From Bacteroidia bacterium (GTDB lineage: Bacteria; Bacteroidota; Bacteroidia; UKL13-3): DNA of 64,000 bases. The position numbers were made by a program, and so were the translations under genes. The stretch lies in contig JALONP010000012.1 in assembly GCA_025454875.1 (NCBI GenBank), forward strand, positions 1 to 64,000. Reading direction: 5' to 3'. Positions 11,944-51,894 of the stretch are shown piece by piece (positions within the stretch are counted from its first letter, which is position 1; each line of letters opens with the position of its first letter). Under the pieces are notes generated by a model. It searched no databases. It worked only from the letters and a program-made list of their open reading frames with translations, and was not told the origin of the DNA.

Positions 11944-13329
11944 TTAGTGGTTGTGCGTATGGTGTTTTTCGTTGTGTTCAGCCACAATTTTGAAAAATGC
12001 GTCTGCGCTAACTTGTTCTGTTTTAACCGTAACCTTGGTTTTTAATACCTCCCTTACTTTTTGTGAAACGGCCAAGTTAATCATGCGTGAGCGGTAATCG
12101 TCTTTTTGCAAACTTGGTCCCACGATGCTTTCAAGCATTTCTTCATTTAGGCCCGTGGTCGCGTATGCACCAAACATGCTGCGTGTATAGTTAATGGCAG
12201 CAGCTTTAATATCACTTTCTTCTACTTTTACACCCGCAGTACTCAACACTTTTTCTTCAAAAATATGGTTGCGTAAATACTGGGCTTCGTGCTCGTAATT
12301 ATGATCCACGTTTTCCGGAGTAAATTTATCTGCATGCCTATCCATTAACCATCTTTTTAAGAAAGCATCGGGTAATTGAATATTTTGTTTTGCTACAAGT
12401 GTATCGAGCATTTCGTGTTCAAATAAATGGTCTGCCTGACCACCAAAATAAGCTTGAAGTTCTGTGGTTAGGCGGGCTTTTAAATCTTCAATGGAATGCA
12501 CACTACCATCACTGTACGCTTTGTCGAATAATTCTTGGTTTAACTCGGCTAAGCTATTGCGTTTAATTTCATTAATGGTTAAGGAGAAGTTTTTCCCGAT
12601 ATCATTCACTGTTAGCTTGTTAATGCCTAACGCATGCGAAATTTCAGTTGTATTACCGTCAAAAAGGTCAAATACATTTACATCAATTGATGCGCCTTTG
12701 GTTTTAGCAAGTAATTCATTTTTAATGGCTTCGTTTTTAATCGAAGAAATCAATACCGGTACCGAGTCATTTTGAACACCACCATCTACAGGGTTTCCAT
12801 TGTCATCAAGTTCCACCATTTTGGTGTATATAATGTCATTGTCGGTAACCGTTTCTTCGTCTGTTAATGTTCCGAAACGTCTTTGCATGCGCTCAATCTC
12901 GTCATTTAGCATTTCGTCAGTAATAGCTACTTCATACTTTGTGAATACATCTTTTTCTGAAACAGTAAGCTCAATCTCTGGAGCCAAACCGATATCAAAC
13001 TTGAATGTGTAATCTGCCGATTTACTTAATTCTTCAATCTTGCTGTCATCAGTAAGCACGGGTTGGCCTAGTATGTTTAATTTTTGCGAATCAATATAAT
13101 CGAACAATCCTTTAGAGGCAGCTGCATTTACAGCTTCAAGTAACAGGCTGGTTCCAAACATTTTTTCAATCATTGATTTTGGCGCAGCACCAGGACGGAA
13201 GCCAGGGATATTTGATTTTTTTTGGTATGCTTTAATTTTTTGATCCAATTCAGTTGCATAATCAGCACTTGAAAGATTAACGGCAATGGTTCCGTTAAGC
13301 GCGTCTTTTTTTTCGAATGTAACGTTCAT
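11944..13329 (-). CDS. tig: Trigger factor
   Basis: 461 residues. Ribosome-bound chaperone for nascent chains. The N-terminal domain carries the ribosome-docking signature GFRPGAAPKSMIEKMFG (~residues 42-58). The middle region (about 150-250) fits a diverged FKBP-like domain in which I could not confirm isomerase residues. The C-terminal half is helical and Glu/Lys-rich. The protein ends in a His-rich tail (EHNEKHHTHNH), as seen in some trigger factors. It is a stand-alone gene upstream of clpPX with its own terminator; the clustering of tig with clpP and clpX is common in bacteria. Confidence 0.93.
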   Translation of the reverse strand: MNVTFEKKDALNGTIAVNLSSADYATELDQKIKAYQKKSNIPGFRPGAAPKSMIEKMFGTSLLLEAVNAAASKGLFDYIDSQKLNILGQPVLTDDSKIEELSKSADYTFKFDIGLAPEIELTVSEKDVFTKYEVAITDEMLNDEIERMQRRFGTLTDEETVTDNDIIYTKMVELDDNGNPVDGGVQNDSVPVLISSIKNEAIKNELLAKTKGASIDVNVFDLFDGNTTEISHALGINKLTVNDIGKNFSLTINEIKRNSLAELNQELFDKAYSDGSVHSIEDLKARLTTELQAYFGGQADHLFEHEMLDTLVAKQNIQLPDAFLKRWLMDRHADKFTPENVDHNYEHEAQYLRNHIFEEKVLSTAGVKVEESDIKAAAINYTRSMFGAYATTGLNEEMLESIVGPSLQKDDYRSRMINLAVSQKVREVLKTKVTVKTEQVSADAFFKIVAEHNEKHHTHNH

Positions 13330-13383: not shown

Positions 13384-13480
13384 AAATTACGTGGTAAAGG
13401 CAGTGATTTTTAGTTGCAACCTTTTAAGCGGCCTTACAACTAAACCGGAAAGCCTTTTTTGTTTCCGGATTGGTTATTTG

Positions 13481-13562
13481 TGCGCATGGAGGGACTCGAA
13501 CCCCCACGCCTTTCGGCACCAGATCCTAAGTCTGGCACGGCTACCAATTACGCCACATGCGC
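13481..13562 (-). tRNA. tRNA-Leu (anticodon UAG)
   Basis: The minus strand folds as a class II tRNA of 82 nt. The acceptor stem is GCGCATG/CATGCGC with discriminator A. The D-stem is GGC/GCC, the anticodon stem CCAGA/TCTGG closes the loop CTTAGGA (anticodon TAG), and a long variable arm (tgccgaaaggc) is followed by a T-arm with TTCGAGT. CCA is not encoded. The ORFs listed across it (13286, 13459) are shadows. Its 5' 18 nt are copied in the adjacent repeat. Confidence 0.93.
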
Positions 13563-13776
13563 AAAATTTATCTTTCATCCACTGAGCCTTTCGGCTACTC
13601 CCGCGCAGCGGGATTGTTCACGTTGTTGTTTTTCAAACAACAGGTTCACGAACAATTACGCCACATGCGCAAAATTTATCTTTCATCCACTGAGCCTTTC
13701 GGCTACTCCCGCGCAGCGGGATTGTTCAGATTGTTGTTTTTCAAACAACAGGTTCACGAACAATTACGCCACATGC
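13545..13776. repeat. 108-bp tandem repeat that includes the tRNA-Leu 5' end
   Basis: Two full 108-bp units (13545-13652 and 13653-13760) differ at two bases and are followed by 16 bp of a third (13761-13776). Each unit begins with the complement of the first tRNA-Leu nucleotides (caattacgccacatgcgc), so the tRNA 5' end occurs once complete, once as 18 nt and once as 16 nt. The rest holds three short hairpins: gcctttcggc, tcccgcgcagcggga and gttgttt-ttc-aaacaac. The unit length is a multiple of three, which creates the repetitive ORFs at 13459 and 13557; I do not regard these as genes. Confidence 0.9.
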
Positions 13777-13969
13777 AATCCTTTGTTTACGAAAAGGTCT
13801 AGGAATTGTTATAACTGTAACAATAGCCGATACTTTTCTTTATAAAAAGGACGGCAAATGTATGTTGTTTTTTCAATTTTCACAATAAATCAAAAAAAAG
13901 AATCCCAAATGGTTATGATAGCAACAAACAAGGGCTTTCTTAACCTATTTAGGGATAGGTAAGAATGAT

Positions 13970-13977
13970 TAGATTTG
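13970..13977 (+). promoter_or_regulatory. Putative -7 box of the Rel/Spo gene
   Basis: TAGATTTG fits TAnnTTTG and ends 20 nt before the ATG at 13998. It lies inside the ORF-track extension (13965), so the longer start would not be transcribed from it. No clear -33 TTG is seen. The preceding ~190 bases hold only AT-rich sequence. Confidence 0.4.
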
Positions 13978-13997
13978 TACACCTGAACCAAAACACC

Positions 13998-16235
13998 ATG
14001 GAGTTGACAGAAGCTGAAATCGAAAACCAACATATTGTAAAAGCTTACCGCAATTTACTAAAGGCCTGCAAGCGGCAATTGGAAAAAGGAGACAAGAAAC
14101 TTATTCGCGAGGCATTTAATTTATCGCTGGATGCGCACAAGAATATGCGCAGAAAATCAGGTGAACCTTATATTATGCATCCGTTGGCAGTTGCGCAAAT
14201 TTGTGCTGAAGAAATTGGTTTGGGAACAACCAGTATTGTATGTGCGCTTTTGCACGATGTGGTCGAAGATACGGATATTTCGCTGGCAGATATCAGGTTA
14301 CAGTTTGGTGAGCGGGTGGCAAAAATCATTGATGGGCTTACAAAAATATCGGGAGTTTTTGATCAGCAAGACAAAAGTATGCAAGCTGAAAACTTTCGTA
14401 AAATGCTGCTTACGTTAAGCGATGATGTTCGCGTTATTTTGATTAAGTTGGCCGATAGGCTCCACAATATGCGCACCCTCGATTCGATGAGTGCAAAGTC
14501 ACAATTGAAGATTGCAAGCGAAACCCAATACGTGTATGCACCATTAGCACACAGGCTTGGCTTATACGCTATTAAAACAGAGCTTGAAGATTTGGCTACC
14601 AAATACATAGAGCCAGATAACTACAATTTTGTCAAAGAAAAACTACAAGAAACCAAAACCCAACGCAACCGATACATTAAACAATTTATTGAACCTATTT
14701 CTGAGGCCTTAACAGAAGCAGGATTTCAATATGAGGTTAAAGGAAGACCAAAATCTATTCATTCTATTTTGAATAAGATGAAAAAACAAAATATTCCTTT
14801 CGAAGAAGTTTATGATTTGTTTGCCATCCGCATCATTATTGATACTGAAGTAGAAAATGAAAAATCAGATTGTTGGCGAGCATATTCGATTGTAACGGAT
14901 TTTTACCGACCAAATCCTGACCGTTTGCGCGATTGGGTTTCTACACCTAAAGGAAACGGATACGAGTCGTTACACACAACGGTGATGGGCCCTAAAGGGA
15001 AATGGGTTGAGGTGCAAATTCGGACATTGCGAATGGATGAAATTGCTGAGAAAGGTTACGCTGCACATTGGAAATACAAAGATAAAGATGCTGCCCAACA
15101 AAGTGCCGATGGACTCGAAGAGTGGTTAGCAAGGGTGCGGGAAATTTTGGAAAACCCAGAATCCAATGCGCTTGATTTCTTAGACGATTTTAAACTCAAC
15201 TTATTTGCAGACGAAATATTTGTGTTTACCCCCAAAGGTGATTTACGCAAACTTCCGGGCAATGCAACTATTTTGGATTTTGCATTTGATATTCACTCCG
15301 AATTAGGTTCCAAATGCATTGGTGGTAAAGTCAATAATAAACTTGTGCCCATTAACTTTAAACTCACCAATGGCGACCAAGTAGAAATTTTAACCTCAAC
15401 CAAACAAACACCTAAAGAGGAATGGCTTGAGTTTGTGGTTACCGCCAAGGCCAAGGCCAAAGTGCGCGACTGGTTTAAGCAAGAAAAATTACGCGCCTCT
15501 GGAATGGGCAAAGAAATATTAGAGCGTAAGTTTAACCAAGATCGTATTCCATTTACCAGCGAAGCGTTAACGGAGCTAATTTATTATTACAAACTGCCCA
15601 GTGTTGCAGAGTTGTATTACCGTGTAGCCAATGGAATGATCGATAAAAAGGATATTGATATTGCAAGTATCCTCGAGCAGATTAAAAAGCAACGAAGCGA
15701 TCAAGTGGCTGAGGCTAGGCTAGCAAGGGCAAACTCAACAGCCAAGCCTAATCCAAATTTAGCATCAGACGCGGTAATTTTAGGTGATGATATTGATATG
15801 CCGTATTCGTTTGCGAAATGTTGCAACCCAATTCCTGGTGATGATATTTTTGGTTTTGTAACGGTTGGTGAAGGTGTAAAAATTCACCGCACCAACTGCC
15901 CCAATGCAATTGGATTAATGAGCAATTATGGTTACCGCATTATTCGAAGTAAATGGGCCAATACAGCAAGTAAAACACGTGCATTTATTACCAATATTAC
16001 CCTCAATGGTATTGATAGTGTAGGTATTGTGAGCACCATCACCGATATTATATCAAAACAATTGCAAATCAATATGCATTCTATTCGAATTGGCTCCAAA
16101 GATGGCATGTTTGAAGGAGCCATTGAGTTAGAGGTGTTTGATACCAACCATTTGGAAGAACTAATGAACAAAATCAAGGCTGCCAGTCCTTTAATAAAAG
16201 TGAGCCGAGAAGATGCTCAGCAGTTGATGAAGTAA
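13998..16235 (+). CDS. Bifunctional (p)ppGpp synthetase/hydrolase (RelA/SpoT family)
   Basis: About 745 residues from the ATG at 13998, chosen because MELTEAEIE fits family N-termini and a -7 box overlaps the longer start. It makes and degrades the alarmone (p)ppGpp. The N-terminal HD hydrolase domain carries EPYIMHPLAVA...LLHDVVEDT, with the HD pair intact. The synthetase domain has RLRDWVSTPKGNGYESLHTT. A TGS domain (EIFVFTPKGDLRKLPGNATILDFA) and a C-terminal ACT domain (ITNITLNGIDSVGIVSTITD) follow. Because the HD residues are retained it is probably SpoT-like/bifunctional rather than a RelA-only synthetase. It lies alone upstream of fur-purA, with 180 bp between. Confidence 0.95.
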   Translation: MELTEAEIENQHIVKAYRNLLKACKRQLEKGDKKLIREAFNLSLDAHKNMRRKSGEPYIMHPLAVAQICAEEIGLGTTSIVCALLHDVVEDTDISLADIRLQFGERVAKIIDGLTKISGVFDQQDKSMQAENFRKMLLTLSDDVRVILIKLADRLHNMRTLDSMSAKSQLKIASETQYVYAPLAHRLGLYAIKTELEDLATKYIEPDNYNFVKEKLQETKTQRNRYIKQFIEPISEALTEAGFQYEVKGRPKSIHSILNKMKKQNIPFEEVYDLFAIRIIIDTEVENEKSDCWRAYSIVTDFYRPNPDRLRDWVSTPKGNGYESLHTTVMGPKGKWVEVQIRTLRMDEIAEKGYAAHWKYKDKDAAQQSADGLEEWLARVREILENPESNALDFLDDFKLNLFADEIFVFTPKGDLRKLPGNATILDFAFDIHSELGSKCIGGKVNNKLVPINFKLTNGDQVEILTSTKQTPKEEWLEFVVTAKAKAKVRDWFKQEKLRASGMGKEILERKFNQDRIPFTSEALTELIYYYKLPSVAELYYRVANGMIDKKDIDIASILEQIKKQRSDQVAEARLARANSTAKPNPNLASDAVILGDDIDMPYSFAKCCNPIPGDDIFGFVTVGEGVKIHRTNCPNAIGLMSNYGYRIIRSKWANTASKTRAFITNITLNGIDSVGIVSTITDIISKQLQINMHSIRIGSKDGMFEGAIELEVFDTNHLEELMNKIKAASPLIKVSREDAQQLMK

Positions 16236-29137: not shown

Positions 29138-29165
29138 GAGTGTTTAGTTTTGAGTGTTTAGTTTT
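29138..29165. repeat. 14-bp direct repeat flanking the four-helix-bundle gene
   Basis: gagtgtttagtttt occurs twice in succession (29138-29151 and 29152-29165). A related motif in inverted orientation (ctcaacactaaaaacttaac) lies at 29538-29557, at the other end of the gene and next to the korA stop. Together they bracket the inserted gene. Confidence 0.6.
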
Positions 29166-29535
29166 AAGTAGATTTATCCTTTGAGTTATTTACTTGAGCT
29201 GTTTTTACAATTGCTGTGAGCATTCTAATCAACTAATCAACCTTATCAAGATAATTATGATAATTGAATACTACAATTTGACTCTTGTCTAAAAGCATCA
29301 ACCAATAACGCGCTTCTCTTGCTTCTTTTGAAGCTATTGACATCTTATAAACAAAATCGGGCTTTGAAAATGCGGCACCAGCCTCGTTGATATTCGCTCC
29401 AATACTGGTAGCGCTTTTCAACAATTGTTTTGAAATCACATACTCCTTTTCATTTAAAAGAACTTTGTATAGGTTGATCATATCAAGCGAAAAGTTAAAG
29501 CTCTTCTCCAGTACCGTTTCATTTTGAGGTGACAT
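29164..29535 (-). pseudogene. Four-helix-bundle (S23/avd-like) protein with an in-frame amber codon
   Basis: The listed ORF (29233-29535, 100 residues) starts MSPQNETVLEKSFNFSLDMINLYK and contains SIGANINEAGAAFSKPDFVYKMSIASKEAREARYWL, diagnostic of the 23S-intervening-sequence/four-helix-bundle family. It stops at TAG after DKVD. Reading on in the same frame gives LIRMLTAIVKTAQVNNSKD and a TAA at 29164, which is the usual family C-terminus, so about 22 residues of helix 4 are cut off by one codon. The truncated 100-residue form may still be made. It is unrelated to 2-oxoacid metabolism and sits between korA and korB, flanked by short repeats, so it looks like an insertion. Confidence 0.75.
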
Positions 29536-50922: not shown

Positions 50923-51894
50923 TTAATACCCAAGTTGGATTAACTCATTTTTGAGTTTGTGTTTATCAATGGGTACTACACCCACTTCTTCGCATACAAG
51001 ACCGCCAGCTAAATTAGAAATGGCCGCAATTTTTGATAAATCCATTTTGAGTGCTAAACATAAAGCAGCAACGCTTACTACAGTATCTCCTGCGCCACTT
51101 ACATCAGCTATTTTACGTATGTGAGCCGGTATATAGTGAAACTGTTTTCCATCTGTAATCATCACGCCTTTTTCGCTCATGGTTACCATGGTATTTTCAA
51201 TTTTCATGCGTTCCATCATTTGCGAAATAGCCAACTCAAATTGTGTTTTGTCTTCTGTATCTACATCTATTTTTAAGCCTTCTCTTAACTCTTTTAAGTT
51301 AGGCTTAAACAAACTTGCGCCATGGTATGCATTAAAATTACGTTTTTTCGGATCTACCACAACCGGAATTCCAAGTTCTTTCGCTTTACGTGTAATGGCT
51401 TCGATGTTTTGAGGAGTAAGTACGCCTTTATCATAATCTTCAAAAATGAGTACATTGGCATTCGGTAACAGCGAAAAGATACGTTGTGTTAAAGCATTAC
51501 TTTCTTCAGGAGATATTGCATGTGTATCTTCTGTATCAATGCGCAACATTTGGGTTGCTTGAGAAATGACACGTAGTTTAACGGTAGTTGTTCGTTTGGG
51601 AGATGTTACAATACCTGATGTATCAATACCTGATTGTTCAAACAACTCCACAAGTGTTGCTCCTTCTGTATCGTTGCCTACTACACTGCACACAGTTGGT
51701 TTAGCCCCAAGCGATACCAAGTTTAAGGCAACATTAGCCGCTCCTCCCAACCTGTTTTCTTTTCGTTCAACGGCTACCACAGGAACCGGAGCCTCAGGTG
51801 AGATGCGGTCTACTTTTCCAAAAAAGTAAGCATCAATCATCACGTCTCCAACAACAAGTACTTTGAGTTGGTTAAATTGGTCAATTGTATTCAT
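50923..51894 (-). CDS. hldA: D-glycero-beta-D-manno-heptose-7-phosphate kinase-like protein (PfkB family)
   Basis: 323 residues from the ATG at 51894. PfkB-type sugar kinase with the RfaE-domain-I signature: VLVVGDVMIDAYFFGKVDRISPEAPVPVV, GGAANVALNLVSLGAKPTVCSVVG, and the anion-hole motif DVSGAGDTVVSV. It makes heptose-1,7-bisphosphate for LPS core. The cytidylyltransferase half (HldE domain II) is absent, so this is the split form; no partner adenylyltransferase gene is seen in the window. Confidence 0.88.
   Translation of the reverse strand: MNTIDQFNQLKVLVVGDVMIDAYFFGKVDRISPEAPVPVVAVERKENRLGGAANVALNLVSLGAKPTVCSVVGNDTEGATLVELFEQSGIDTSGIVTSPKRTTTVKLRVISQATQMLRIDTEDTHAISPEESNALTQRIFSLLPNANVLIFEDYDKGVLTPQNIEAITRKAKELGIPVVVDPKKRNFNAYHGASLFKPNLKELREGLKIDVDTEDKTQFELAISQMMERMKIENTMVTMSEKGVMITDGKQFHYIPAHIRKIADVSGAGDTVVSVAALCLALKMDLSKIAAISNLAGGLVCEEVGVVPIDKHKLKNELIQLGY

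Follow-up and report, generated by a model that had tools for sequence, protein, structure and literature searches.

In front of an intact tRNA-Leu(UAG) gene, the stretch of Bacteroidia DNA analysed here (the window, 64,000 nucleotides) carries two tandem 108-bp units that re-create the 5' end of that gene. We consider it fairly likely that this array consists of two copies of a non-autonomous mobile element, and that the element belongs to a homing-type family parasitising the loops of tRNA genes in Bacteroidota. A unit of this family comprises the part of the tRNA from the loop to the nearer gene end, a hairpin insert that replaces or interrupts that loop, and a short spacer; presumed autonomous versions carry a small GIY-YIG nuclease gene besides.

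The tRNA-Leu(UAG) array and its orthologous loci

TRF reported a repeat at 13545-13776 with a period of 108, 2.1 copies and 98% matches, which bears out the preliminary description of 108-bp repeats re-creating the tRNA-Leu 5' end upstream of the gene. There are two full units, a minimum count if the assembly is a short-read one, and these differ from each other only at unit positions 1, 2, 49 and 50 (Table 1). The hairpins described at the same time are equally real: 199 of 200 shuffles fold less stably than the + strand of the unit (z -2.5), and the minus strand gives a moderate fold relative to shuffles (z -1.5). In the RNA sense a unit runs from tRNA nt 1-18 through a 54-nt insert of two hairpins to nt 19-25, a 29-nt leader and the next tRNA start, the insert site in both units being exactly the D-loop (18^19). 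The earlier outline, tRNA start followed by hairpins, was correct in both parts and missed nt 19-25 (GTAGCCG) after the hairpins. Since the tRNA sequence resumes there, each unit in the window is a truncated tRNA copy interrupted in its D-loop.

Table 1. Features of the tRNA-Leu(UAG) locus (positions in the window)
Feature	Position	Strand	Evidence or remark
Intact tRNA-Leu(UAG), the re-created target gene	13480..13562	-	ARAGORN; Rfam RF00005, 55.2 bits
Proximal 108-bp unit	13563..13670	-	TRF; covariance model (built from these units), 101.2 bits
Proximal unit, copy of tRNA nt 1-18 (GCGCATGTGGCGTAATTG)	13653..13670	-	Exact match
Proximal unit, 54-nt double-hairpin insert between tRNA nt 18/19, without loss of tRNA bases	13599..13652	-	
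Proximal unit, copy of tRNA nt 19-25 (GTAGCCG)	13592..13598	-	Isoacceptor-specific: GGTAGACG before Leu-CAG in G010
Proximal unit, leader-like 29-nt segment, joins tRNA G1	13563..13591	-	
Distal 108-bp unit, first two tRNA bases altered	13671..13778	-	TRF; covariance model, 94.9 bits
Distal unit, 54-nt double-hairpin insert	13707..13760	-	
Putative Bacteroidota promoter box TACATTTG, upstream of the array	13855..13862	-	Sequence conservation only

The genes on either side of the tRNA are, as we presume from reading their sequences, tig (11944-13329) and a RelA/SpoT gene (13965-16235). Sequence comparison showed that TACATTTG and TTTGCCGTCC are conserved across the orthologous loci, an empty one included. 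Because the array lies between this putative promoter and the tRNA, it is probably transcribed as a leader, and the competition for RNase P suggested in the preliminary description would be conceivable for the 5' type of unit alone, which stands in such a leader. We found no integrase in the window units, which at 108 bp are too short to encode one and which re-create the 5' rather than the 3' end. Rfam at its gathering score returned only two tRNAs from the 64-kb window, and the units match no RNA family. Elsewhere in the window there are short tandem repeats of 14- and 15-bp units (29138-29169 and 51602-51641), unrelated to the array.

The same locus is occupied in several relatives. Within the family, 113-bp units with 77% identity to those of the window stand there in two genomes from another genus, in tandem rows of at least two or three; in one of the two genomes the outermost unit has decayed. 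One of these genomes (G010) also has a 114-bp unit before tRNA-Leu(CAG), with the CAG tRNA's own 5' end and GGTAGACG; a single unit family thus stands before two isoacceptors, each copy in its host tRNA's own sequence. Leu(UAG) of the sister species UKL13-3 (CP012155.1) has a different type of unit, 99 bp long and present in seven identical copies, with the palindrome TCCCGATAGCTATCGGGA in the D-loop. In the relative L042 the site is empty, and the distance from the putative promoter/TTTGCCGTCC box to the tRNA is 40 nt, as against 241, 296 and 708 nt at loaded loci. One site therefore exists in both allelic states, as is expected of a homing element, empty in L042 and loaded in the window, G010, G021 and UKL13-3. 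Four further candidates (L046-L048 and L052) were rejected as unit loci, being true tandem tRNA-Leu genes. Contigs C1, C16 and C29 of G010 stop within or beside arrays of this kind, and assemblies from short reads are probably interrupted at tRNA genes by such elements.

A BLAST search for the 108-bp unit found no further copy in its own genome and almost only chance matches beyond the genus (g10), and a covariance model search added weak matches only. Such searches perform poorly across genomes because the sequence of the unit varies while its architecture is shared. The spacer had been proposed as something to look for near other tRNAs; the unit itself is unique by BLAST in its genome, but split copies of Leu(UAA), Leu(CAA) and Arg(CCU) there contain related double hairpins. 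The fallback of a one-off duplication, with no other copies and no length variation, can be discarded, since related copies exist and unit number varies, sister species having 2 vs 7 units at Leu(UAG) and 1 vs 11 at Asn.

Interrupted tRNA copies in five genomes and across Bacteroidota

We collected the stretches around tRNAs from five genomes (142 tRNAs) and scanned the flanks of each tRNA for insert-split copies of that tRNA. This returned 91 split copies in the sense orientation, 3 in antisense and 0 in a control with swapped tRNAs. The inserts interrupt D- and T-loops: with two exceptions they follow tRNA nt 10-24 (D-arm) on the 5' side, most often nt 13-18, and with one exception they lie in the T-arm on the 3' side. 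D-loop units rebuild tRNA 5' ends and T-loop units rebuild 3' ends. Between 17 and 37% of the tRNA genes are affected, namely 8/30 in the window genome, 5/29 in UKL13-3 (a count without its Leu-UAG array, which was seen separately) and 11/30, 8/27 and 8/24 in the others. Those of the window genome include Leu(UAA), Leu(CAA), Arg(CCU), Asn, Pro and Gly, to which direct reading added Lys and Met. In several arrays the units distal to the tRNA are the most diverged, as expected if arrays grow at the tRNA side; other arrays have no gradient. Anticodon loops are evidently used sometimes, since tandem tRNA-Ala copies at one locus (L173, G108:C122) have an anticodon-loop palindrome (CCCCGAA..TTCGGGG) and a Met copy (L091) has one likewise.

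The inserts are of two types, short palindromes of 16-32 nt that replace 3-6 loop bases and long double hairpins of 54-87 nt that are inserted without base loss. Nine long double hairpins from Leu, Lys, Phe, Ala and Arg sites covary, with pairing in 98.4% of cells (no more than 55% when slid) and 31 double changes vs 10.2 on shuffling; this set leaves out the 54-nt insert of the window, which aligns poorly with the longer double hairpins, so that a joint alignment failed. As long hairpins occur both in D-loops and, at Ala, in a T-loop, one hairpin family serves both ends of the tRNA.

Ordinary partial tandem duplications of a tRNA and its flank, since decayed, would be an alternative origin for the near-perfect head-to-tail arrays of variable number, the hairpins arising by template switching, which hairpins favour, and the numbers by slippage. 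We consider this unlikely, because one covarying hairpin family recurs at different tRNAs and in different genomes, because the restriction to the D-arm on the 5' side and the T-arm on the 3' side has almost no exceptions, and because nuclease ORFs lie within units. Slippage of a structured leader, as first suggested, fails on its own to account for related hairpins in the loops of different tRNAs, and slippage or recombination may still alter unit number.

Signatures of the two kinds of unit extend well beyond these genomes. The D-loop signature occurred in 18 of 296 Bacteroidia genomes, with 24 matches vs 3 in the control. Of these 24 loci, 18 have a tRNA on the same strand 21-107 bp downstream (Val, Met, Phe, Thr, Ala, Gly, Trp or Asn), and most carry the adjacent tRNA's own acceptor sequence. 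Phylum-wide, 29 of 393 genomes had the T-loop signature (46 matches vs 3 in the control), usually just 3' of a tRNA where the fetched stretch contained one. Many Bacteroidota families have such signatures. The earlier idea of a small dispersed repeat aimed at tRNA 5' ends was thus essentially right and far too narrow, the target being the tRNA loop. We found no description of such tRNA-loop elements in the open-access literature, and the family appears to be undescribed so far.

GIY-YIG genes beside tRNAs and a possible mechanism

Several units carry an ORF of ∼75-95 amino acids with a GIY-YIG domain. The tRNA-linked proteins match the GIY-YIG family PF01541 (Pfam E 2e-11 to 2e-15), and Y5, Y16, R26, H30 and E64 are invariant in 8 sequences, giving an intact predicted active site and the features by which the GIY-YIG superfamily is recognised. 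The clearest example is in UKL13-3 (G001), where eight tandem units of ∼410 bp lie 3' of tRNA-Asn (L075, 2287-5447). Every one of them contains an intact 94-aa GIY-YIG ORF, has a palindrome in the T-loop and restores the 3' end of the tRNA; 5' of the same tRNA there are eleven 80-bp D-loop units. At Asn the window genome has one GIY-YIG gene and one 5' unit. Its tRNA-adjacent GIY-YIG ORFs are this one, in which the Tyr of the YIG motif is replaced by Cys, and a broken one at Met; no nuclease gene is linked to the array in the window. ORF-bearing units contain GIY-YIG alone and no integrase. Across seven genomes at least 16 of ∼33 stand-alone GIY-YIG loci lie within 300 bp of a tRNA (∼0.3 expected), about half of these stand-alone genes having no detected adjacent tRNA.

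A second group of stand-alone GIY-YIG genes (L158, L159, L165, L166 at 882-1150 and L172, with the motif GEGANHTKKHLP and similar) is not linked to tRNAs and was set aside; some of its members adjoin other repeats, such as the 69-bp tandem repeats in L166. In the window genome an 81-aa GIY-YIG ORF (L164, G000:C11 ∼9165) lies between two direct repeats with terminator-like hairpins, and a tRNA was not found there. Another GIY-YIG gene, at L187 (G391:C2), lies near a tmRNA with short direct repeats; other structured RNA genes may also be targets.

From these associations we propose that the nuclease would cut the loop of an intact tRNA gene, and that a unit with tRNA fragments matching the two flanks of the break would serve as the repair template, so that a copy of it would enter the gene and the end of the tRNA would be restored. 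The hairpin would render the copied loop uncuttable. Units would pile up in tandem beside the gene because the rebuilt gene is a target again and the neighbouring unit an ideal donor; tandem growth could also proceed by ordinary unequal recombination. Units without an ORF, such as those of the window, would be mobilised in trans by a nuclease. The phage enzyme SegB, also of the GIY-YIG type, cuts within tRNA genes and drives tandem amplification via homologous recombination, with a preference for RAWTSGAAC (PMC13096335). By our reading of this published motif, its reverse complement, GTTCSAWTY, would fall in the T-loop; the strict motif fits some of the targeted T-loops and not all. In their presumed way of working the units strongly resemble free-standing homing-type elements, a resemblance that falls short of proof. 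A broader proposal, on which we are almost evenly balanced and which we advance tentatively, is that they are unrecognised minimal mobile elements that pair a loop-specific GIY-YIG nuclease with a loop-plugging hairpin, insert into an essential tRNA gene, rebuild its end at once and stack their copies, the hairpin-only units being non-autonomous parasites.

Alternatively, the GIY-YIG enzyme would be SLX1-like and cut the cruciform of an interrupted copy rather than an intact loop, and breaks there would drive recombination between unit and tRNA. The solved structures nearest to these proteins by sequence are UPF0213 proteins and, weakly, SLX1, and the inserts are strong hairpins with conserved pairing. 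This scheme leaves the first insertion into an intact tRNA unexplained, and SegB prefers a sequence found in the T-loop; we hold it to be improbable.

The short palindromes invite comparison with REP-like sequences that are moved by a Y1 (RAYT) transposase with a preference for the hairpin loops of tRNA genes, tandem copies being secondary. REP-type insertion can favour structured DNA, the palindromes are dispersed (63 in UKL13-3 and 16 in the window genome, G000, against 0-3 in the control), and four of the five genomes have Y1 transposases. Canonical palindromes lie near the fetched tRNAs in only 3 of 16 cases in G000, which counts against the homing-type reading. In G021, however, which is 94% complete and has no Y1 transposase, 7 of 8 palindromes adjoin tRNAs, contrary to what is expected of a REP/RAYT pair; moreover, the linked gene is GIY-YIG and not Y1, and simple insertion neither re-creates a tRNA end nor explains units with both loop flanks, which makes this origin quite improbable. 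That the leader units are host regulatory RNAs (tRNA decoys, or RNase P or T-box-like control of tRNA-Leu) accords with their folded structure and probable transcription between promoter and tRNA, but is very unlikely given the empty site in L042, the dissimilar units that the sister species has at this locus, the counterparts located past the terminators, 3' of other tRNAs, and the many different tRNAs involved.

Comparison with known systems

The homing-type reading that we favour shares features with several known systems. Like REP/BIME sequences with their RAYTs, the elements include short dispersed palindromes; they differ in having no linked Y1 gene here, one loaded genome lacking such genes altogether, and we know of no REP/BIME in tRNA loops or re-creating tRNA ends. 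The double-hairpin elements of fungal and algal mitochondria likewise have two adjacent hairpins and are apparently mobile; these are organellar, and the likeness drawn here is one of architecture. The 178-bp repeats of E. coli tyrT (rtT RNA) also follow one another in tandem next to a tRNA gene and each contain part of that tRNA, but they concern the 3' end of one tRNA and have neither loop hairpin nor nuclease; Rfam gave no rtT match to the window.

Genes for tRNAs are classic targets of mobile elements. In genomic islands, too, the tRNA is the target and its end is restored, typically the 3' end and by tyrosine or serine integrases, whereas here both tRNA ends are affected and the unit contains no integrase. 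This classic picture includes neither the re-creation of 5' ends nor loop-specific hairpin inserts that flank many tRNAs on either side. If our reading is true, 17-37% of the tRNA genes in these genomes bear traces of a parasite with units of ∼60-410 bp, a selfish element would be seen to live in essential genes with little harm, and the small stand-alone GIY-YIG proteins of Bacteroidota, mostly unassigned, would gain a testable role. The elements may also account for tRNA-like fragments and for assembly breaks near tRNA genes.

Closest in enzymology are SegB and the free-standing GIY-YIG homing endonucleases of T-even phages, which are likewise small GIY-YIG enzymes encoded beside tRNA genes (PMC13096335, PMC2988022). 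Those systems differ in being phage-borne and in amplifying whole tRNA genes, and loop hairpin inserts, re-created tRNA ends or ORF-less units are not described there. If the proposed homing is correct, the tRNA-loop elements would link bacterial chromosomes to the amplification mechanism of phage SegB.
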